64,000 nt of DNA from contig NZ_CYUD01000004.1 in the NCBI RefSeq assembly GCF_001458295.1, forward strand, positions 1-64,000, written 5' to 3'. The position numbers and the translations under genes are program-made. This document shows positions 9,216 through 20,854 of the stretch, piece after piece (position 1 is the stretch's first letter; each line of letters opens with the position of its first letter). The stretch is from Ruegeria denitrificans (GTDB lineage: Bacteria > Pseudomonadota > Alphaproteobacteria > Rhodobacterales > Rhodobacteraceae). The notes under the pieces were generated by a model, which saw only the letters and a program-made list of their open reading frames with translations, did no database searches and was not told the DNA's origin.

Positions 9216-9222
9216 ATGCAAC
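9181..9222 (+). promoter_or_regulatory. marR promoter with two MarR operator half-sites
   Basis: A promoter TTGCAT (9182-9187) - 17 bp - TATAGT (9205-9210) is covered by two copies of a 14-bp palindrome of form GTTnCATnTGnAAC: GTTGCATGTGAAAC at 9181-9194 and GTTTCGTATGCAAC at 9209-9222 (one deviation). The two are near-inverted copies of each other. The first overlaps the -35 and the second overlaps the predicted transcription start and the ATG at 9216, the classic layout for MarR autorepression. Matching sites lie at 16880-16914. Confidence 0.6.
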
Positions 9223-9644
9223 TAGATTCCTTCTTTCCCTATCGTCTCGCCGTGGCGTCCGAAGCGTTCTCACGAAAACTCACGGAAGTATACCAGCGCG
9301 AATTCGGGCTATCACGGGAGGAATGGCGCCTGCTTTTTCTACTTGCCAATGCCAAAAGCCTGACCTCTCTAGAACTCTCGCAACGCACCACTCTGGACAA
9401 GGTTCAAGTCAGTCGGGCCGCGCAGAGGCTTGACGATAAAGGTTTGATAACCAGAGCAATTTCCGAAGAAGATCGCCGGATAAGGGTCTATCATTGTACG
9501 CCGGAAGGCCATCGGCGTTTCGAACAGTTGCTGCCACAAGTCGATGCTTGCGCGCAAGGGATGCTGAATTCCATGTCGGCTGAGGACCGCGCAGCGCTGG
9601 ACCAAGGCGTGACTGCTCTGCTTAAAGCCGCGTCGGTGACATAG
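9216..9644 (+). CDS. MarR-family transcriptional regulator
   Basis: A 142-aa winged-helix regulator: dimerisation helix at residues 5-25, recognition helix around LSQRTTLDKVQVSRAAQRL (residues 54-72) and the wing EEDRRIRVYHCTPEG. Its likely target is the convergent operon that starts at 16841 and ends just beyond it, because the same palindromic operator is found at both promoters. The ATG has no convincing Shine-Dalgarno sequence and lies 6 nt after the -10 TATAGT, so the mRNA may be leaderless. The ligand is presumably an aromatic acid or CoA thioester handled by the operon (inference). Confidence 0.88.
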   Translation: MQLDSFFPYRLAVASEAFSRKLTEVYQREFGLSREEWRLLFLLANAKSLTSLELSQRTTLDKVQVSRAAQRLDDKGLITRAISEEDRRIRVYHCTPEGHRRFEQLLPQVDACAQGMLNSMSAEDRAALDQGVTALLKAASVT

Positions 9645-9799: not shown

Positions 9800-10432
9800 T
9801 CAGGAGGCATCGGGCTGGCTTTCAGGTCGGGCGGCGTCGAAAGCGGGTAGGGTGAATGCGCGTTCTTCGATCTCAAGCAGACGGTCGAATGGAGTCATAT
9901 CGACACCCCAGCGATGTGCATTGTAAAGCTGTGCGACAAGGCAGATATCGGCAAGGTCCGGCTTGTCACCAAAACTGAAGGTGGTGTTAGTTGGCAAAAG
10001 CGCTTGGTAGGCATGGAAACCTTCGGTCATCCAATGCCGGAACCACTCGACCCCATCCTCAGCCGTAAGCCCGTACCGGGACTTCAGATGCGCAGTGATC
10101 CTAAGGTTGTTAACTGGATGAATGTCCATCGCGATGGTATGGGCCGCAGCCTGTACCCGCGCACGCTCGAACGGGTCCTCCGGCAGGAACGGAGGTTCGG
10201 GTATGGTGGCGTCGAGATAATTGATGATCGCAAGCGATTGAGTGAGTACACGACCGTCCTCAAGGATCAGCGTAGGGACGCCCTTCCCGGGGTTCAGCGC
10301 GACGTAGTCCGGCGCGCGCTGTTCTCCGGCAACAAGGTTGACCGGAACTGTTTCATAGGAAATACCCTTGAGATTCAGTGCGATCCGGACGCGAAAAGAG
10401 GTCGTCGAACGCCAATAGCCGTATAGTTTCAT
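9800..10432 (-). CDS. maiA: Maleylacetoacetate/maleylpyruvate isomerase (zeta-class GST)
   Basis: A 210-aa zeta-class glutathione transferase. The N-terminal thioredoxin-like domain carries the active-site segment GYWRSTTSFRVRIALNLKG (residues 5-23) and the glutathione-binding TQSLAIINYLD; the C-terminal helical domain has DIHPVNNLRI. It isomerises the cis product of hydroquinone-type ring cleavage (maleylacetoacetate or maleylpyruvate) to the trans isomer in the cytoplasm, using glutathione. As last gene of the operon with an FAD hydroxylase and VOC protein, it implies that the ring is opened between a hydroxyl and a side chain as in homogentisate or gentisate pathways. No cupin-type dioxygenase for those compounds is present here. 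Confidence 0.9.
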   Translation of the reverse strand: MKLYGYWRSTTSFRVRIALNLKGISYETVPVNLVAGEQRAPDYVALNPGKGVPTLILEDGRVLTQSLAIINYLDATIPEPPFLPEDPFERARVQAAAHTIAMDIHPVNNLRITAHLKSRYGLTAEDGVEWFRHWMTEGFHAYQALLPTNTTFSFGDKPDLADICLVAQLYNAHRWGVDMTPFDRLLEIEERAFTLPAFDAARPESQPDAS

Positions 10433-10517
10433 GACTTCCTAGTTTTGTGGTCAGCCGTCTTGGGTTTTTCCAAAGGTCGGTTCCCGCGCCAGAAAGTCTT
10501 CTGGCACGAGAAGCCTG

Positions 10518-11063
10518 TTAGGCAGACTTGTTGAGTTCTTTGGCATGCAGCCAATCGGCATGTTTCGGAGCTTTCTTGGTCTTCGACCACTCTTCCAACA
10601 TGAGCCACTTCACTTCGTCCATGCGCTCCAGCAGCGCTTCTTCTTCCGGGTCCGGGCAGGCCAGTTCGATACGATGGCCGGAAGGATCAAAGAAGTAGAT
10701 AGAGTGGAAAATCGAATGGTCGGTCACGCCGAGTACTTCGACGCCATTAGCTTCCAGATGGTCCTTGAACTGAAGCAGCGTTTCACGATCCTTCACCTTG
10801 AAGGCGATGTGCTGCACCCAGATTGGGGTATTGGGATCCCGGCCCATTTCCGGCTTCGTGGGCAGCTCGAAGAAGGCCAGAACATTCCCATTCCCGGCGT
10901 CCAAAAACAGATGCATGTAGGGGTCTGGTTCATGCGTCGATGGGACATGATCCTCGGCGATGGCCAGGATGAAGTCCATGTTCAGCATTTTTCCATACCA
11001 TTCGATCGTCTCTTTTGCGTCTTTGCAGCGGTAAGCGACGTGATGGATCTTCTCGATTTTCAT
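10518..11063 (-). CDS. VOC-superfamily protein, putative ring-cleavage dioxygenase
   Basis: A 181-aa protein with one vicinal-oxygen-chelate domain made of two beta-alpha-beta modules. Probable metal ligands are the His in KIHHVAY (near 7-8), the His in VQHIAF (near 85) and the Glu in HRIELAC (near 135), the 2-His-1-Glu pattern of extradiol dioxygenases and glyoxalases. A charged helical tail follows. An AGGAGA ribosome-binding site precedes the ATG. Placed between maiA and a TRAP transporter in an operon with an FAD hydroxylase, it is the best candidate for ring opening; a glyoxalase-type or isomerase role is not excluded. Confidence 0.75.
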   Translation of the reverse strand: MKIEKIHHVAYRCKDAKETIEWYGKMLNMDFILAIAEDHVPSTHEPDPYMHLFLDAGNGNVLAFFELPTKPEMGRDPNTPIWVQHIAFKVKDRETLLQFKDHLEANGVEVLGVTDHSIFHSIYFFDPSGHRIELACPDPEEEALLERMDEVKWLMLEEWSKTKKAPKHADWLHAKELNKSA

Positions 11064-11126
11064 CGACTTCTCCTTTCCGAGGTTGCAGTTTTTAAGGCCA
11101 AAGCGACGTACGGTCGCCCCAGCGGT

Positions 11127-12443
11127 TCACATCAATCCCACCAGCCAGAGTGACAGGGAGGGTATGAGGATGAGCAGGATCAGCCGCAGGATGTCTGCGA
11201 TCCAGAATGGCAGTACGCCGCGAAAGATCGTTCCAAGTGAGACATCTTGCAATACGCCCTTCAGTACGAAGACATTCATACCGACCGGCGGCGTGATCAG
11301 GCTGATTTCAGTAGCCACAACAACGACGATGGCGAACCAGATAAGGGCGTTTTCAGGATCGAGCAGGAGTTCATTGGCAAACTCAAGCTCGAACATTAGC
11401 GGGTAGAAGACCGGCACCGTCAGCAGGATCATCGACAGACTTTCAAGTACACAGCCAAGCACCATGTAAGTCAGCATTATGAACACGATGACCGCCCAGA
11501 CTGGCAATTCATTGTCGATAACAAAGCCTGATAGGGCATCCGGCAGTCCGGCGTAGTTTATAAAGTTGGTAAATAACTCGGCGCCGATAATCACAGCAAA
11601 GATCATGGCTGTAGCCCGGATCGAATCCAGCGTAGCTGCGAAAAAGCTGCGCAAGGTCATCGTCCTGAGGGCAATGGCGATCAGGATCGAAGCACCTGCA
11701 CCCATTCCGGCCGCCTCAGTTGGTGTAAAGAACCCACCGTAAATTCCAACCATGATGAAGAGAAAAAGGCCCAGCACACAGATGACGCCTACGACGTCAG
11801 CCCGGCTCATCGGTTCGGTGTTTTCCTCCTCCGGAGCCAGAGAAGGGTTCAACCGTACTGCAACCATGACCGCGCCAAGATAAAACAGCACACCAATGAT
11901 ACCTGGCACAATTCCCGCGATAAAAAGCTTGGCAATATTGGTTTCGGTCAACAGGCCGTAGATGATCAGGATCACCGACGGCGGGATCAAAATGCCCAGT
12001 GTCCCACCCGCGGCGATAGAGCCTGTCGCCAGCCGGTCATCATAGCCAAAACGACGCATTGAAGGCATGGCAACTTTTGACATCGTGGCAGCAGTGGCCA
12101 AGGACGAGCCACACACTGCGGAGAAACCGCCGCAAGAAAAAACCGAAGCCATGGCAAGTCCGCCGCGCAGTCTGCCAAAAAGCCGATCGGCACCGGCAAA
12201 CAGCCCATGTGCCACGCCTGAGCCTGCCAACACGTTGCCCATGAAGATGAACAGAGGGATGACCGAAAGGGAGTAAGACAAAGAAGTGTCAAAGGCCACT
12301 TGCCCTGTCATAGCCCAGGCAGGCTCCCAACCACGCATATAGGCAAACCCAAAGCCGCCTACAGCCGCCATTGCGAACGCGATAGGCACGCGCAGTAGTA
12401 TAAGTCCCAGCAGGATCGCAAAGCCGATCAGAGATTCAATCAT
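11127..12443 (-). CDS. dctM: TRAP transporter large permease, DctM family
   Basis: A 438-aa integral membrane protein with about twelve hydrophobic segments, the DctM subunit of a TRAP transporter. Typical features are the FIFMGNVLAGSGVAHGLF segment near residue 65 and the GGTLGILIPPSVILIIYGLLT segment near 145. It imports an organic anion using the sodium gradient with the DctQ and DctP proteins encoded directly upstream. Its ATG overlaps the dctQ stop by 4 bp. The co-encoded FAD hydroxylase and isomerase suggest the cargo is an aromatic acid. Confidence 0.93.
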   Translation of the reverse strand: MIESLIGFAILLGLILLRVPIAFAMAAVGGFGFAYMRGWEPAWAMTGQVAFDTSLSYSLSVIPLFIFMGNVLAGSGVAHGLFAGADRLFGRLRGGLAMASVFSCGGFSAVCGSSLATAATMSKVAMPSMRRFGYDDRLATGSIAAGGTLGILIPPSVILIIYGLLTETNIAKLFIAGIVPGIIGVLFYLGAVMVAVRLNPSLAPEEENTEPMSRADVVGVICVLGLFLFIMVGIYGGFFTPTEAAGMGAGASILIAIALRTMTLRSFFAATLDSIRATAMIFAVIIGAELFTNFINYAGLPDALSGFVIDNELPVWAVIVFIMLTYMVLGCVLESLSMILLTVPVFYPLMFELEFANELLLDPENALIWFAIVVVVATEISLITPPVGMNVFVLKGVLQDVSLGTIFRGVLPFWIADILRLILLILIPSLSLWLVGLM

Positions 12444-12988
12444 GGGGCGCCCTCTAGGTGATCTTGATCGGTGTCGTGTTCGATGGGCGGTTGTAGTCCA
12501 CGCAGGAATGCGATGAACGCCGAAACCATGCAGGAGACCCCAGCCAGATAGCCGAATGGCGCCAGTGGAATCTCCAGCGCGTTGGTCACCGCGCCGTCAT
12601 GGGCGGCTTTGGCCGCATGGGTGAAAAGCCGCCAAGAAAAGGTGGCTAACAGGGCCGCAGAGAAGAGGCCTGCAAACGCAGACAAAAGACGTTGCGTCTT
12701 GCGTCCAAGCGCCAGATTCAGCAGGTCGACCTCGACATGTTCGCGGCGCTCTGTCGTCAGTGGTAAGGCCAAGAAAACAAGCGCTGCCAGGAGTATTTCA
12801 GTGAGTTCAAAGGCACCGGAAAGCGGTGCGTTGAACAGGTAACGCCCAACTACATCCACACAGGTGATGAGGACGAGGCTGAACAGGATCAGTGCGGCCC
12901 CGACACCCAGAGATCTGTCGAGCAGCAGCCCGATGTCCAGCCCCTCATCAGGGGGCTGGTCGGGGAAACGATGGCGAAGCCGCTCCAT
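12440..12988 (-). CDS. dctQ: TRAP transporter small permease, DctQ family
   Basis: A 182-aa protein with four predicted membrane helices (around residues 30-55, 68-85, 105-125 and 150-170), as in DctQ subunits, including the VVGRYLFNAPLSGAFELTE segment. The N-terminus (about 25 aa) is charged and longer than usual. It stabilises the DctM subunit in the inner membrane. It starts 3 bp after the dctP stop codon and overlaps dctM, so the three TRAP genes are coupled. Confidence 0.9.
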   Translation of the reverse strand: MERLRHRFPDQPPDEGLDIGLLLDRSLGVGAALILFSLVLITCVDVVGRYLFNAPLSGAFELTEILLAALVFLALPLTTERREHVEVDLLNLALGRKTQRLLSAFAGLFSAALLATFSWRLFTHAAKAAHDGAVTNALEIPLAPFGYLAGVSCMVSAFIAFLRGLQPPIEHDTDQDHLEGAP

Positions 12989-12991
12989 GGA

Positions 12992-14026
12992 TCAGAAGTC
13001 CACGCCAGCTTGTTTGCGCATTTCTTCCAGAGCAGCAGTGCCGTCATAGCCGTCTGCCGAGATGGCTTCGGACCACGCTGTTTCGGCATCTGCTGCTTGG
13101 GACTTGATCGCATCAACGACTTCGGCTGGCGCTTCGTAGATTTCGATCCCGGCCTTTTCCGCCGCGGCACTGCCTTTCTCGTCTGCACCGACCCAAGCTT
13201 CGCCAACCAGTGCGGCAAAAGCTTCACCGGAAATCGCCTCTATGGCTGCCTGATCCTCTTCAGAGATCTCGTTCCATTTGTCTTCGTTCATGACCATGAA
13301 CCAAGTGGTGTTGTAGATACCACCGGGCACTTTCATTGTGTACTTGACGTCTTCGGTCAACTTAAACGCAGCAAGAGCATCGTAGGGGAACGTCACGCCG
13401 TCGATTACTCCGCGCGAGAGCTTTTCATACACCTCACCCGAAGACATGAAGAGCGTTGTGGAGCCGAGACCAGACATCAGGTCTGAGATGTAGCCACCAG
13501 GAACGCGAATCTTGAGACCCGAGAAATCGTCTGTCTTTTCGATCTTGCGGACATTGTTGTGCAACATGCCGGGGCCGTGCACAAAGAGCCCCAGAAGCTT
13601 GGTGCCCTCATGTTCTTTCTGCGCCTCCAGCGGGCCGGAATAGACATTCCAGAATGCTTTGGAACCAGCAACGGCATCGTCACCAATGAACGAGAACTGA
13701 CCGATCCGAGAGCGGGTGAAACGGTCATCTGTGGTAAAGGAATGCAAGCCATAGGTGATGTCAGCGATACCTTCGGCAGCCATGTCGTAATGTGCCGGGG
13801 GCGGGCCCATGGGTTTTGCAAGTACACGTACGGTGACGCGGCCATCGGTGACTTCTTCCACTTGCTTGGCCCAGGGTTTGATAGCCTCTACTACGATCGG
13901 GTGGCGCGGCGGCAGCCAGCTCGAAAGCGCCAGCTTGGTCTCTGCTACGGCAGTCGTTGCGATGGACATGGCCGCGGTTGCAATGCCGGCGAGCAGCAGG
14001 GCGTTGCCCTTCAGTTTGATATTCAT
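12992..14026 (-). CDS. dctP: TRAP transporter solute-binding protein, DctP family
   Basis: A 344-aa periplasmic protein with a Sec signal peptide (residues 1-28, ending AVAE). The start was set at the ATG at 14026, preceded by GGGAGGATACC; twelve further codons upstream are open but do not fit. DctP features include LSSWLPPRHP near the N-terminus and the IRVPGGYISDLMSGLGSTTLF region with the conserved Arg that binds the substrate carboxylate. This Arg implies a carboxylic acid ligand, consistent with an aromatic or aliphatic acid being brought to the FAD hydroxylase pathway. Confidence 0.92.
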   Translation of the reverse strand: MNIKLKGNALLLAGIATAAMSIATTAVAETKLALSSWLPPRHPIVVEAIKPWAKQVEEVTDGRVTVRVLAKPMGPPPAHYDMAAEGIADITYGLHSFTTDDRFTRSRIGQFSFIGDDAVAGSKAFWNVYSGPLEAQKEHEGTKLLGLFVHGPGMLHNNVRKIEKTDDFSGLKIRVPGGYISDLMSGLGSTTLFMSSGEVYEKLSRGVIDGVTFPYDALAAFKLTEDVKYTMKVPGGIYNTTWFMVMNEDKWNEISEEDQAAIEAISGEAFAALVGEAWVGADEKGSAAAEKAGIEIYEAPAEVVDAIKSQAADAETAWSEAISADGYDGTAALEEMRKQAGVDF

Positions 14027-14042
14027 GGTATCCTCCCTTGGA

Positions 14043-14234
14043 TTATGTGATGTCGGCGGCATTGAGCGCCTGGGTCAGGACGTCCCGGTCGCCGATGTGG
14101 TTGGCCAGGATCAGAATTAACCTTGCGTTGATTGTATCGCTCTCGGCCTTGGTCTTGCCGTCATGCGTTGCCAGCAGGTCGGCGTAGAAATCGTCGGTTC
14201 CGTCGATATTTGGTGTCAGGATCAGATCGCTCAT
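14043..14234 (-). CDS. DUF2783 domain-containing small protein
   Basis: A 63-aa acidic protein (TPNIDGTDDFYADLLATHDG at its start) matching the DUF2783 family, which has no assigned function to my knowledge and which I associate with FAD-dependent aromatic hydroxylase genes. Its ATG overlaps the hydroxylase stop by 4 bp, and it sits between the hydroxylase and the TRAP binding protein. Coupling at this ratio suggests a subunit or stability partner of the hydroxylase. No signal peptide or membrane segment is visible. Confidence 0.8.
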   Translation of the reverse strand: MSDLILTPNIDGTDDFYADLLATHDGKTKAESDTINARLILILANHIGDRDVLTQALNAADIT

Positions 14235-15865
14235 TGGCTTACTTCCTTCCCGATCGCACGGCGCAGGGCGGTGCGCATCAGGGTTTCGTTGTATTCCGCT
14301 CGGCGGGCAGCGACATGCTGATCCGGTCGGATCAGGTAGACTGCCGAACTGGCTTCGCCGAGATAGCGTTTCCTGAGTTGACCAGTCGGGTCGTCGCGGG
14401 TCGAAAGAGCCAGCCGGCGTGCCGTGATCCCATCCTCTTCCAGAACTTCAGGTGCTTCTGCATCGATTGTCAAAAGGATGAACTCATCACCCAGCTTTGA
14501 CAGCAAAAATTCATTGCCCAGCGGAGCATCGGGGCAGGGGGCGCCGGGCTGCGTCCTTTCAGGACCGCCTGCCAGCGCGTCAGCGGAATTGAGCCCCGAT
14601 CCACTGTACACGCATGGAACCGAGAGCCGACCCGAGTTGACCATCGGTCGTGCGAACTCATACGTTCCGCTCAGGCTGAGCACGGCATCACGAAATATCC
14701 GGCTGGTTTCTGATTTCGGCGTGATGAAATCGGTGGACCGTGTAGAATTCAGGATGTTTTCGTCCGCGCCATGAACCCGTTCGTTATCATAGGTGTCAAG
14801 CAGGCTCTCAGGCGCTTTGCCTTGAATAACCAACCCGAGTTTCCAGCCAAGATTGTCCACGTCCTGCATGCCGGAATTGGCACCACGCGCACCAAAGGGC
14901 GAGACTTGGTGCGCCGCATCACCAGCAAAAAACACCCGCCCCGAGCGGAAACTGTCCATCCGCTTGCACTGGAAGGTGTAGATAGAGGACCAGACCATTT
15001 CATAGTCCACATCCCCCAGCATTGCGTCCAATCGGCGACGGATATTCTCTTCTTTAAGTTCTTCTTTGCGGTCAACATCCCAGCCGATCTGGAAGTCGAT
15101 CCGCCAGACATCATCAGGTTGTTTGTGCAACAAAGCCGATGCACCTGAGCCATGGGTCGGTTCAAACCAGAACCAGCGCTCGGTAGGGAAATTCAGATCG
15201 CCTTTCAATTTGATATCGGCGATCAGGAAGCTGTCTTGAAAGACGCGACCGCTGAAATCGAGATCAAGCATCCCGCGCAACGGTGAGTTGGCGCCGTCGC
15301 ACCCGATAAGCCAGTCCGCTTCAAGCGTGTATGGCCCATCCGGTGTCATCACCTTCAGGGTGACGTGATCGTCGTGTACTTCGACGCTGTCCACACGGTT
15401 CTTGCCACGCAACTGGATCGGAGCACCCTTGTCCTGCAGCTCGCGCAGGCGATCGATCATGTATTGCTCGAAATAAGGCTGTTGTAGATTGATGAAGGCG
15501 GGGTATTTATGCCCGTCTTCCGGCAACAGGTTAAATTCGAATACCTTGTCATCGCGATGGAATACCTTACCGAGATTCCAGACTACGCCTTTTTCGAGCA
15601 TCGGTTCGCCGCAGCCATAGCGGTCGGCCACTTCCAGGCAGCGCTTTGCGAAACAAATCGCCCGACTGCCCATGCCGATCCCCTCATGATCATCAAGCAC
15701 AACTACCGGAACACCTTGGCGGCCGAGGTCCAGCGCTGTGGCTACTCCGATCGGCCCGCCGCCCATGACCACAACCGGATGACGCACCGGCGCGTCAATA
15801 TCCTGATCGGGCGATTTCTCGTATGGATAGCTCTTGTAAGCGAGCGTGTAACGGTCATCAAACAT
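14231..15865 (-). CDS. FAD-dependent aromatic monooxygenase (MhpA/PheA-like)
   Basis: A 544-aa flavoprotein hydroxylase of the p-hydroxybenzoate-hydroxylase group. The Rossmann motif VVVMGGGPIGVATALDLG lies at residues 31-48, the DG motif in DWLIGCDGANS near 185, and the GD motif in VFFAGDAAHQVSPFGARGAN near 305. The C-terminal about 110 residues resemble the thioredoxin-like domain of phenol hydroxylase and MhpA. It hydroxylates a phenolic acid in the cytoplasm with NAD(P)H and oxygen. It lies downstream of the MBL gene and is coupled to DUF2783. Substrates such as 3-hydroxyphenyl acids or hydroxybenzoates fit, but the sequence does not decide. Confidence 0.88.
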   Translation of the reverse strand: MFDDRYTLAYKSYPYEKSPDQDIDAPVRHPVVVMGGGPIGVATALDLGRQGVPVVVLDDHEGIGMGSRAICFAKRCLEVADRYGCGEPMLEKGVVWNLGKVFHRDDKVFEFNLLPEDGHKYPAFINLQQPYFEQYMIDRLRELQDKGAPIQLRGKNRVDSVEVHDDHVTLKVMTPDGPYTLEADWLIGCDGANSPLRGMLDLDFSGRVFQDSFLIADIKLKGDLNFPTERWFWFEPTHGSGASALLHKQPDDVWRIDFQIGWDVDRKEELKEENIRRRLDAMLGDVDYEMVWSSIYTFQCKRMDSFRSGRVFFAGDAAHQVSPFGARGANSGMQDVDNLGWKLGLVIQGKAPESLLDTYDNERVHGADENILNSTRSTDFITPKSETSRIFRDAVLSLSGTYEFARPMVNSGRLSVPCVYSGSGLNSADALAGGPERTQPGAPCPDAPLGNEFLLSKLGDEFILLTIDAEAPEVLEEDGITARRLALSTRDDPTGQLRKRYLGEASSAVYLIRPDQHVAARRAEYNETLMRTALRRAIGKEVSQ

Positions 15866-15890
15866 TGGAAAATCCCCTCCCTTCAGGCGT

Positions 15891-16841
15891 TCAGCCTTGC
15901 AGTTGTTCCCACATTTCTAGATCCCGCTGAGCCGTCCAGATACGTGGTGTGTCGATGCCGCGGGCTTCGTCATAGGCGCGCGCAACATTGAACGGCAGGC
16001 AGTGTTCGTAGATCGCGTAGTCAGCGAATTTCGGGTCGCACGCGTCACGTACAGCGTCCCAGGCATCTTTCAGGCTGCCGCCGCTAGCGGCGACACGAGC
16101 GGCCGGGCGATAGGTGCTTTCAACAAAATCCCGGGTGGACTCGATTGCTGCTTCAACCATGTCTTTACCGACCAGTGCATCACCGCGGCCGGGCGCTATA
16201 GCATCGACGTCAAATGCGGCGATATTGGCCAGAGTGCCACCCCAATCGTTGAAATGGCCGTCGCCGCAATAGCAGGCCGAGTGGTACTCGACGATGTCAC
16301 CGGTAAACATGACGTTCTGATCGGGGACGTGAATGACGATGTCACCGGCAGTATGGGCGCGACCAAGATGCATTAGATCGACGCGTCGACTTCCAAGGTA
16401 GACGCTCATGCGATCCTTGAAGGTCGTAGTGGGCCAGGTCAGTCCGGGAATGCTCTCATAGCCTTCGAACAGACGTGGAAAACGCTGAAACTCACTGTCC
16501 CAGTCTTCTTGGCCGCGTTCGACAACCTGCGCCCGGGTTGTTTCGGACATGAGAACCTGATCTGCGCCATATGCTGAAGCGCCTAGAACACGAACCGCGT
16601 GATAGTGAGTTAGCGCTAGATGTGTAATCGGTTTGTCGGTAACTTCTCTGACCTTCTCAATCACCTTGCCAGCCAGACGTGGCGTGGCCTGCGCCTCGAC
16701 AATCATGACGCTATCATCGCCGATGATCACGCCGGAATTGGGATCACCTTCAGCAGTAAATGCCCAAAGCCCTTCACCCACTTCGGTGAAGCTAATCGTC
16801 TTTTCAGCCAAATCTCCCTGAGATGCGAATGTCTTAGCCAT
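15891..16841 (-). CDS. Metallo-beta-lactamase-fold protein with degenerate metal motif
   Basis: A 316-aa MBL-fold protein starting at the ATG at 16841 (GGGAGAA upstream); a further 17 codons are open but overlap the operator. The strand-turn segment that should read HxHxDH is THYHAVRVLG: the first two His are present, the Asp and third His are Val and Arg. Later ligands are recognisable in GRAHTAGDIVIH and FTGDIVEY. Loss of the second metal site suggests a mononuclear centre or non-classical chemistry. As first gene of the operon it may hydrolyse a ring-cleavage product or thioester, replacing the fumarylacetoacetate-type hydrolase missing from this operon (inference). Confidence 0.8.
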   Translation of the reverse strand: MAKTFASQGDLAEKTISFTEVGEGLWAFTAEGDPNSGVIIGDDSVMIVEAQATPRLAGKVIEKVREVTDKPITHLALTHYHAVRVLGASAYGADQVLMSETTRAQVVERGQEDWDSEFQRFPRLFEGYESIPGLTWPTTTFKDRMSVYLGSRRVDLMHLGRAHTAGDIVIHVPDQNVMFTGDIVEYHSACYCGDGHFNDWGGTLANIAAFDVDAIAPGRGDALVGKDMVEAAIESTRDFVESTYRPAARVAASGGSLKDAWDAVRDACDPKFADYAIYEHCLPFNVARAYDEARGIDTPRIWTAQRDLEMWEQLQG

Positions 16842-19202: not shown

Positions 19203-20003
19203 TTAGGCAAAGTTGATATCGACCGAGCCAAATGGTCCGAAATCAGCATGGATTTCGGTGCTCGGCGGGCATTCGACGGGTCGAATAAAGCTACCAGACA
19301 AGACCACCTGGCCTGGTTCTATGCTTTGGTCGTACTGCGCCATGCGACGAGCCAGCCAGACGACGCTTTCGACCGGGTCGTTCAGAACACCTGCGCCCAG
19401 ACCGGTTTCCTCGATCTCACCATTGCGGAAGGTCAGTGCCCCAACCCAACGCAAATCAAATGCATCTATCGCGTGACGCTCAGGGCCCAACACGATGCCC
19501 GCATTGGCGGCGTTGTCGCTTATTGTGTCATAGACGGTACGTGTTTGTCCGGTCGCGGGGTCGACACGCTGAATACGCGTGTCGAGGATTTCAATCGAAG
19601 GCGCGACGTAATCCGTGGCGGCAATGATGTCGTCACGGGTGACGTTCTCTCCGCCTACCGCAGATTTCATGACAAAAGCAATCTCAGCCTCGATCCGGGG
19701 CTGGATGAACCGGCCCGCAGGAACGGTTCCGCCGTGATCGAACTTCATATCATCGAACAAAATTCCGCTGTCGGGAATATCGATGTTCAGCGCATATTGC
19801 ATCGCTTTCGAGGTCAACCCGATTTTCCAGCCGATCACCTTGCGCCCTTTGGCCAATTTTTTTCGATAAATGGCGTTCTGCACCTCATAGGCGTCGCTCA
19901 TTCCCATTTCGGGATGGCGCAGTGTCAAAAGGCCAATCTGTTCGTGCGAGCATTCAGCCTGCAATAAGTCGGCTGCGGCACGGGCATGATCTTCGGGGGT
20001 CAT
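19203..20003 (-). CDS. hpaH: 2-oxo-hept-4-ene-1,7-dioate hydratase
   Basis: A 266-aa member of the HpaH/MhpD hydratase group in the fumarylacetoacetase-like superfamily. It shows SDAYEVQNAIYRKKLAKG, IGWKIGLTSKAMQ and the metal-ligand region FIQPRIEAEIAFVM. It adds water to the 2-oxo-hept-enedioate formed by HpaG, giving the substrate of HpaI. Its start overlaps the hpaG stop by 4 bp, and hpaI follows 11 bp later, so the three act as a translationally coupled unit in the cytoplasm. Confidence 0.92.
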   Translation of the reverse strand: MTPEDHARAAADLLQAECSHEQIGLLTLRHPEMGMSDAYEVQNAIYRKKLAKGRKVIGWKIGLTSKAMQYALNIDIPDSGILFDDMKFDHGGTVPAGRFIQPRIEAEIAFVMKSAVGGENVTRDDIIAATDYVAPSIEILDTRIQRVDPATGQTRTVYDTISDNAANAGIVLGPERHAIDAFDLRWVGALTFRNGEIEETGLGAGVLNDPVESVVWLARRMAQYDQSIEPGQVVLSGSFIRPVECPPSTEIHADFGPFGSVDINFA

Positions 20004-20854
20004 ACCTGTTCGTCCTCGACTGTGTTGCGCAGCGTGCCAATGCCCTCGACTGAGATTTCCACTACGTCACCCGGTTCCAGGTATTTCGGTGGATCAAACC
20101 GCGCGCCCGCACCCGTCGGGGTGCCGGTGACGATGATGTCTCCGGGCAGAAGCGTCATGAAGGTCGAAATATATTCGATCTCGCGCCTTATCGGGAACAT
20201 CATGCGATTCAGCGTATCGTCCTGGCGCAGCTCACCATTCACATGGGTCTGAATTCGGGCATCGTCCAACTGGGCCGCGTCGGTGAATGGCACTAGCCAC
20301 GGACCGATGGCACCGGAATTGTCCCAGTTCTTTCCCTGTGTGACGTTGAACTTGGCATGACGGACCCAGTCGCGGATTGTGCCTTCGTTACACAAGGTTA
20401 GGGCCGCAATGTGGTCATAGGCATCTTCCTGCGAAATTCGCCGACCGGATTTGCCAATCACGATAACGACTTCGCCCTCGTAATCCAGCGTTTGGTTTTC
20501 CGGAGGACGGATCAGCGGGCGATCGTGCCCGGTGAAACCGCTGGCAAAGCGCGGAAACAACGACATGTATTTCGGCTGTTCGCTGCCGTCTTTGTATTCC
20601 GCGTTGCGGTCGGGAAAGTTCACTCCGACGCAGAGGATGCGGCGGACATCCGGCATCACCATTTCGTAAGTGAATTCCTTGTGGGTCACTTCGCGGCCTG
20701 CTGCGGCCTCGGTCAGCTTTTCAAACGCGCCCGAGGCGATCACCTCGTAAAGGCTGGCCTGATCGGGAAAGGCGTCGTTCAGCGCAATTGCACCGTCATT
20801 GGTGATCGCGCCGAAAAAAGTTGCTCCGTTTGCGGTGAAAGTTGCAAAGCGCAT
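20000..20854 (-). CDS. hpaG: FAH-family decarboxylase/isomerase of the homoprotocatechuate pathway
   Basis: A 284-aa fumarylacetoacetate-hydrolase-fold protein. CVGVNFPDRNAEYK, the metal-binding LDYEGEVVIVIGK (acidic ligands) and IVTGTPTGAGARFDPPKYL are diagnostic. In this context it most likely decarboxylates and isomerises 5-oxopent-3-ene-1,2,5-tricarboxylate. E. coli HpaG has two fused domains of this fold, while this is a single-domain version that presumably forms homodimers; no second copy is present here. It could also act as a hydrolase on a maleyl/fumaryl product from the neighbouring MarR-controlled operon, which lacks its own FAH enzyme. Confidence 0.85.
   Translation of the reverse strand: MRFATFTANGATFFGAITNDGAIALNDAFPDQASLYEVIASGAFEKLTEAAAGREVTHKEFTYEMVMPDVRRILCVGVNFPDRNAEYKDGSEQPKYMSLFPRFASGFTGHDRPLIRPPENQTLDYEGEVVIVIGKSGRRISQEDAYDHIAALTLCNEGTIRDWVRHAKFNVTQGKNWDNSGAIGPWLVPFTDAAQLDDARIQTHVNGELRQDDTLNRMMFPIRREIEYISTFMTLLPGDIIVTGTPTGAGARFDPPKYLEPGDVVEISVEGIGTLRNTVEDEQV

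Follow-up and report, generated by a model that had tools for sequence, protein, structure and literature searches.

Introduction

In the homogentisate pathway the aromatic ring is opened by HmgA (PF04209), an enzyme with a cupin fold, and homogentisate itself is the product of 4-hydroxyphenylpyruvate dioxygenase (HPPD). Other ring-opening enzymes, such as the hydroquinone 1,2-dioxygenases PcpA and LinE and the related MhqO, have the vicinal oxygen chelate (VOC) fold. Homogentisate genes are also the neighbors of the hydroxylase genes mhaAB in Pseudomonas putida U and P. xenovorans LB400, where MhaA has 566 and MhaB 60 amino acids (aa) (PMC3053370). In addition, a crystal structure released on 2025-07-23 (PDB 9u42) carries the title 'Crystal Structure of Homogentisate 1,2-Dioxygenase from Acinetobacter in Complex with Zn ion'. 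Here, we describe an operon of Ruegeria denitrificans (assembly GCF_001458295.1, contig NZ_CYUD01000004.1). It lies in a stretch of 64,000 nucleotides, analyzed as a whole and called the window below, and comprises eight minus-strand genes, spanning 16841 to 9800, for a metallo-beta-lactamase (MBL)-fold protein, an FAD hydroxylase, a DUF2783 protein, a three-component tripartite ATP-independent periplasmic (TRAP) transporter, a VOC protein and the maleylacetoacetate isomerase MaiA. A sequence-only reading of the same DNA had placed all eight genes correctly and had proposed an undescribed aromatic pathway. The cluster instead falls under an existing pathway name and is best read as part of the homogentisate route, with an MhaAB-type hydroxylase as the supplier of its substrate. 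A VOC protein devoid of dioxygenase activity, which that reading had named as counting against its idea, looks unlikely. In our view the operon is probably a homogentisate-pathway module with its own importer, in which a VOC ring-cleaving enzyme serves as a non-homologous stand-in for the cupin HmgA.

The VOC Protein as a Candidate Ring-Opening Enzyme

The nearest solved chain to the window VOC protein is 9u42 (72% identity over 167 columns; phmmer E 7e-84, residues 3-178). The predicted iron ligands are H8, H85, and E133, and the predicted catalytic residues H116 and Y123. Among 176 aligned rows, which were picked by BLAST alone and hold some species twice, H8, H51, H85, H116, Y123, R131, and E133 are invariant, and H7 is found in 175. 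An alignment with XylE sets H85, H116, Y123, and E133 opposite H214, H246, Y255, and E265, which we take to be metal-binding and catalytic residues of XylE. The protein has in this way a 2-His-1-Glu triad and the catalytic His/Tyr pair known from type I extradiol dioxygenases. The HgmA_C domain (PF04209) was not found in it; at E ≤ 1e-3 it matches only glyoxalase/dioxygenase families, and the Pfam and NCBIfam scans returned no specific family.

A single pair of VOC modules makes up the predicted model (mean pLDDT 84), whose structure matches include methylmalonyl-CoA epimerase (Z 12.7), HPPD (12.2), BphC (10.8), catechol 2,3-dioxygenase (10.4), and the 2,6-dichlorohydroquinone dioxygenase 4huz (10.0). 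The PcpA/LinE enzymes and MhqO share the fold with it (4huz as above; 3oaj, E 1.8e-8), and PcpA has a His-His pair at its first strand and cleaves beside a hydroxyl group of hydroquinone, a further likeness. These proteins are, however, 310-335 aa long with two module pairs, whereas the window protein has 181 aa and a single pair, and it falls outside their two-domain class of about 320 aa. The model superposes poorly on 9u42 despite the 72% identity (Foldseek TM 0.46, root mean square deviation 16.9), and the 50 VIA matches listed do not include 9u42, perhaps because the modules of the crystal chain are arranged differently.

The proposal of the sequence-only reading that a VOC enzyme opens a para-hydroxylated ring is supported. 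The protein would be an Fe(II) enzyme similar to type I extradiol dioxygenases that cleaves a hydroquinone-type ring, judging by the extradiol residue pattern, the title of 9u42, and the neighboring genes that make or process homogentisate. Among the papers listed from a library with few subscription journals, none names a VOC-type homogentisate dioxygenase.

VOC Genes as Probable Substitutes for hmgA

Across its protein family, the VOC enzyme is linked to homogentisate genes and occurs in the place of HmgA. Among 248 family genomes, VOC genes (≥ 72% identity) are present in 44 (48 matches, of which four weaker ones were dropped), MBL genes in 154 and HmgA in 167. Six genomes initially had MBL without HmgA, and five after checks, as one (G102) has a piece of HmgA at a contig edge. 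Four of the five (G060, G110, G169, G206) share the arrangement fah-MBL-FAD-DUF2783-VOC with no HgmA_C match, and three of these have HPPD above its cut-off and should therefore make homogentisate. The fifth (G111) has a fah-MBL locus without hydroxylase or VOC. VOC is thus found in 4/5 HmgA-less genomes versus 39/149 others when G102 is moved (Fisher 0.022; 0.006 when G111 is also left out; 0.052 with G102 unmoved). A further genome (G064) has VOC with neither MBL nor HmgA, near a contig end.

In the phylum sample of 398 genomes, fumarylacetoacetase was found in 68, HgmA_C in 109 (114 matches less five partial ones of 21-30 bits), and VOC in 51 (E ≤ 1e-30), 41 of them strong. All 12 genomes with fumarylacetoacetase and no HmgA have VOC, compared to 11/56 with both (Fisher 2e-7); counting strong VOC only, the figures are 8/12 and 9/56 (Fisher 9e-4). 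These tests treat related genomes as independent, the eight strong cases representing six families (f1, f6, f37, f40, f43, f83). VOC and fah lie in one cluster in 5/12 (G169, G320, G455, G485, G578). Of 35 named genomes searched whose VOC locus has no hmgA, 22 gave no HgmA_C match, Crenobacter and Noviherbaspirillum included.

The neighbors of the VOC gene point to the same pathway. At 18 of the 40 fetched phylum loci, in 17 genomes, an HPPD homologue is encoded no more than about 4 kb from VOC, often together with fumarylacetoacetase; these HPPD homologues are 42-66% identical to that of Acinetobacter baumannii. Of the 17 genomes, 16 have no HgmA_C match, and the match in the remaining one is divergent. 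Named cases are Ideonella dechloratans, Crenobacter oryzisoli, Noviherbaspirillum galbum, and Piscinibacter defluvii. The hydrolase gene next to VOC frequently codes for fumarylacetoacetase, either above the TIGR01266 cut-off or of the PF18288-type short form. At 40 family VOC loci (drawn from 40 of the 48 matching genomes) we counted hmgA 20, fahA 24, hydroxylase 29, MBL 26, and maiA 21 times, and at 80 named loci, the best 80 of 584 relatives and therefore biased to the close kin of the window, hmgA 28, fahA 45, short fahA 13, hydroxylase 52, MBL 47, maiA 35, and HPPD 17 times. VOC homologues are widespread in Pseudomonadota and occur also in Acidobacteriota and Myxococcota metagenome-assembled genomes. 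A VOC tree of 120 rows requires at least 11 switches of the HPPD setting, six of which are forced by well-supported branches; nine of 128 loci, without the row-picking motif, were left out, and three loci whose HPPD gene is on the opposite strand (L204, L209, L237) count there as 'other'. The VOC gene appears to move between HPPD and MhaAB settings, whose shared product is homogentisate.

A separate observation concerns a conjugative IncFII Enterobacter plasmid (L126, 8056-11863), on which transposase genes flank VOC, maiA, and the genes for a major facilitator superfamily transporter and a fumarylacetoacetase of the short type.

The Tyrosine Cluster of Acinetobacter baumannii

The enzyme of 9u42 and the window protein are both single-domain VOC proteins of about 181 aa, and the Acinetobacter genes of this type adjoin maiA and fahA. 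The settings differ: the A. baumannii gene stands beside HPPD and an IclR regulator (fahA-maiA-VOC-IclR-hppD), and HgmA_C was found in none of three chromosome-size records (E ≤ 1), whereas the window gene is part of an operon with MhaAB-like and TRAP genes, and its genome also encodes HmgA. In an expression table of a biofilm study, taken without its column heads, the first values are 60 for fumarylacetoacetase, 24 for MaiA, 24 for VOC ('glyoxalase', A1S_3416), and 79 for HPPD, and the second value for VOC is just 1.02 (PMC3758355). A study of pigmented A. baumannii noted the lack of hmgA; it placed a 'type I ring-cleaving dioxygenase' gene between hmgC and hmgR and regarded it as probably inactive (PMC7646211). 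In strain DETAB-R21, a transposon-interrupted 'hmgA' is reported to lead to pyomelanin, and a plasmid copy to abolish the pigment (PMC9431530). The nine-base target word printed there occurs once per five-gene tyrosine cluster, within the VOC gene, in 4/4 strains. As proof that this 'hmgA' is the VOC gene the word was rejected, since so AT-rich a word occurs by chance in the cluster in 44% of order-1 simulations, and it gives no more than a hint. In another paper (PMC11945678), the stretch called 'hmgA' agrees with maiA both in length and in its overlap with fahA, and the name 'hmgA' appears to denote different genes across A. baumannii pyomelanin papers.

Genomes with HPPD, MaiA, and fumarylacetoacetase but without HmgA can be taken to have a broken tyrosine pathway, as was done in the pigment study (PMC7646211). 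With the VOC class named, such maps could be completed, annotation pipelines would gain a rule, and how a 181-residue VOC enzyme performs the task of a cupin could be tested cleanly.

Proposed Pathway and Its Alternatives

The hydroxylase and the DUF2783 protein (544 and 63 aa, genes overlapping by 4 bases) have the sizes and order of MhaAB, a flavoprotein of about 560 aa with a partner of about 60 aa and homogentisate neighbors in Pseudomonas putida U and P. xenovorans LB400 (PMC3053370). By size, order, and the DUF2783 domain, the pair is likened to an MhaAB-type 3-hydroxyphenylacetate 6-hydroxylase, and the operon's substrate is most likely 3-hydroxyphenylacetate. In LB400, however, mhaAB adjoins hmgABC with a cupin HmgA, and MBL, TRAP, and VOC genes are not mentioned in the accessible part of the report (PMC3053370). 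A gene for a 61-aa partner of an FAD monooxygenase was also seen at the place of DUF2783 in Acinetobacter sp. NCu2D-2 (L121, 3857-4042); its product has no Pfam match at E ≤ 1e-3.

The TRAP transporter would import an aromatic acid, most likely 3-hydroxyphenylacetate, and the MhaAB-like pair, judged by family and neighbors, would hydroxylate it at C6 to homogentisate. The VOC enzyme (H8/H85/E133) would then cleave the C1-C2 bond of homogentisate and so form maleylacetoacetate, like HmgA, MaiA would convert this to fumarylacetoacetate, and a fumarylacetoacetase encoded on another contig (C15) would yield fumarate and acetoacetate. The window holds no copy of the genome's own HmgA or fumarylacetoacetase (tblastn, E ≤ 1e-3), in agreement with the earlier observation that the operon lacks both enzymes. 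For the genome as a whole, the lack of a cupin dioxygenase does not hold. Contig C15 carries a second module, MarR(r)-hmgA-fahA-MBL-FAD-DUF2783-maiA, without VOC, so that the genes missing from the operon are present elsewhere in the genome, which in total has one HgmA_C match, one fumarylacetoacetase, and two HPPD matches, one above and one below the cut-off. The proteins of the two modules are 82% (MBL), 64% (FAD hydroxylase), 72% (DUF2783), and 45% (MaiA) identical. Cupin HmgA and the VOC protein share the putative reaction and the pathway neighbors, but they belong to different families, and the HmgA gene lies on C15 and not in the window operon. In R. denitrificans the VOC enzyme is most likely a second isozyme beside HmgA. 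The operon would be a second one of this marine bacterium for the known homogentisate pathway, with the VOC protein most likely opening the ring; use of 3-hydroxyphenylacetate would be added to what marine Ruegeria can do. A small gene at the end of the C15 module (L008, 8561-9091), which by eye presumably resembles DOPA 4,5-dioxygenase, has similar counterparts near maiA in several relatives.

In Ruegeria arenilitoris the operon reads MBL-FAD-DUF2783-dctPQM-VOC-maiA-fahA-MarR(r), a full route with VOC in an operon without hmgA, which lies elsewhere in that genome; R. pomeroyi SZCCDBG043 has MarR(r)-hmgA-fahA-MBL-FAD-DUF2783-VOC-maiA. The window operon is incomplete by this measure, fumarylacetoacetase not being inside it. 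Taken together, we think it fairly likely that there are two unrelated classes of homogentisate-cleaving enzymes, the cupin HmgA and a small single-domain VOC protein without a specific Pfam or NCBIfam family. The VOC class would be widespread in Pseudomonadota, replace HmgA in several families, and travel with HPPD or MhaAB, with some Ruegeria keeping both, one per module, and MBL marking an undescribed accessory step of the MhaAB route.

Several observations weigh against the proposed reading of the operon. HmgA is also present in 39 of the 44 family genomes with VOC, which is mostly not the sole route there, and HgmA_C is present in 13 of the 35 named genomes without hmgA at the VOC locus, including Piscinibacter and Rhodoferax ferrireducens (metagenome-assembled genomes of unstated completeness make up many of the 35). 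Four of the 12 phylum genomes that have fumarylacetoacetase without HmgA have only a distant VOC (42-46% identity) not adjoining fah, which may act in something else. None of hmgA, fahA, hydroxylase, MBL, or maiA was found at 11/40 family VOC loci, and none of the sought pathway genes near 11/80 named ones, some of these stretches being cut by contig ends. At five family loci (L045, L051, L062, L063, L069) the VOC gene follows an ABC transporter operon and not homogentisate genes. The function of 9u42 rests on its PDB title, which is a claim, and the bound metal is Zn, not Fe; by eye, a third histidine of XylE (H199) has no counterpart in the window protein. Finally, the product of the operon's hydroxylase is deduced from its relatives, and the pathway does not account for the MBL protein. 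As to the five loci after ABC transporters, the transporter is of the oligopeptide type and the VOC orthologue 84-89% identical.

The frequent company of HmgA would fit a VOC protein that is an accessory, glyoxalase-like or detoxifying enzyme for quinone or glutathione adducts, paired with MBL like glyoxalase I with II and with MaiA, while HmgA cleaves the ring. The MBL, VOC, and glutathione-dependent MaiA proteins do adjoin each other, and glyoxalases are among the fold matches, with methylmalonyl-CoA epimerase on top. We nevertheless consider this unlikely. HPPD-VOC clusters occur in genomes of which 16/17 lack HgmA_C, and A. baumannii has HPPD, MaiA, fumarylacetoacetase, and VOC with no HgmA_C in the three records. 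The extradiol His and Tyr are retained, and by eye the metal-binding Glu of the first glyoxalase module is not at its place. MBL and VOC are not a fixed pair (154/248 versus 44/248 genomes), and the title of 9u42 names a dioxygenase.

The absence of fahA, which follows maiA in R. arenilitoris, and the presence of hmgA, fahA, and maiA on C15 would also suit a decaying, functionless partial duplicate of the C15 module. This, too, is improbable: the eight frames are open with a ribosome-binding sequence at most starts, the active-site residues are retained, and Ruegeria sp. Alg231-54 retains this operon, likewise without fah, with proteins that are 92-100% identical (VOC 99%, TRAP 98-100%). MaiA (44-45%) and the hydroxylase (64%) are so far from the C15 copies that the operon is not a recent duplicate. 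An operon for 3-hydroxybenzoate, with a hydroxylase yielding gentisate, VOC cleaving it, and MaiA as maleylpyruvate isomerase, would follow parallel chemistry with related zeta-class isomerases, but is very improbable given that fumarylacetoacetase is often the hydrolase partner of VOC, that homogentisate-making HPPD neighbors VOC in many genomes, and that MaiA scores above the maleylacetoacetate isomerase cut-off.

The gene set, whose conservation the sequence-only reading had suggested checking, is unlikely to be a chance arrangement: the operon recurs in Alg231-54, and VOC orthologues in 44/248 family genomes. The idea of that reading that VOC belongs to a new pathway was rejected, homogentisate genes surrounding VOC in many relatives.

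The MBL Protein

Zinc-dependent MBL hydrolases have the consensus motifs HxHxDH and PGHG. The window protein and its 92 homologues (93 rows, picked by BLAST alone) have HYHAVR instead in 93/93, with Arg in place of the later metal-binding His in 93/93. The later motif is PGRG or GGRG, and its GRG is present in all 93 rows. The protein thus lacks the dinuclear zinc hydrolase motifs, and one metal site looks lost, the residues of the second site being replaced. The MBL gene adjoins MhaAB-like genes in many genomes, and of the 154 family genomes with MBL, 43 have VOC and 111 do not. MBL had been proposed as the final hydrolase; this was rejected in view of the existing fumarylacetoacetase, on C15 and inside the R. 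arenilitoris operon, the replaced zinc-hydrolase motifs, and the spread of MBL (111/154 without VOC).

Layout of the Operon and Its Surroundings

The genes of the operon (Table 1) are separated, from MBL to MaiA, by 25, -4, 16, 3, -4, 63, and 85 bases. The convergent MarR gene is likely the operon's regulator; a 98% identical MarR neighbor is retained in Ruegeria sp. Alg231-54.

Table 1. Genes of the operon and the adjoining regulator gene, with positions in the window.
Feature	Position	Strand	Evidence
MBL-fold protein, 316 aa	15891..16841	-	PF00753; nearest PDB 8d2z E 5e-110
FAD aromatic hydroxylase, 544 aa, putatively MhaA-like	14231..15865	-	PF01494; NCBIfam PRK08132 740 bits
DUF2783 protein, 63 aa, putative MhaB-like small partner	14043..14234	-	PF10932 89.8 bits, cut-off 25
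TRAP substrate-binding protein DctP	12992..14026	-	PF03480; ribosome site supports start 14026, open reading frame reaches 14062
TRAP small permease DctQ	12440..12988	-	PF04290
TRAP large permease DctM	11127..12443	-	PF06808, TIGR00786
VOC-fold protein, 181 aa, putative homogentisate 1,2-dioxygenase	10518..11063	-	72% identity to PDB 9u42; residues; genome context
Maleylacetoacetate isomerase MaiA	9800..10432	-	TIGR01262 267.6 bits, cut-off 171
MarR-family regulator, convergent with the operon	9216..9644	+	PF12802

The same strand also carries, upstream of the operon, a meta-cleavage cluster for homoprotocatechuate (hpa), which extends from 18136 to about 25824; among its genes no hpaB or hpaC hydroxylase was seen by eye. 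HpaD, HpaE, and HpaH score above their cut-offs, and HpaI, an HpaF-like protein, and an HpaG-like FAH-fold protein below; the last (20000-20854) is the other FAH-fold protein of the window.

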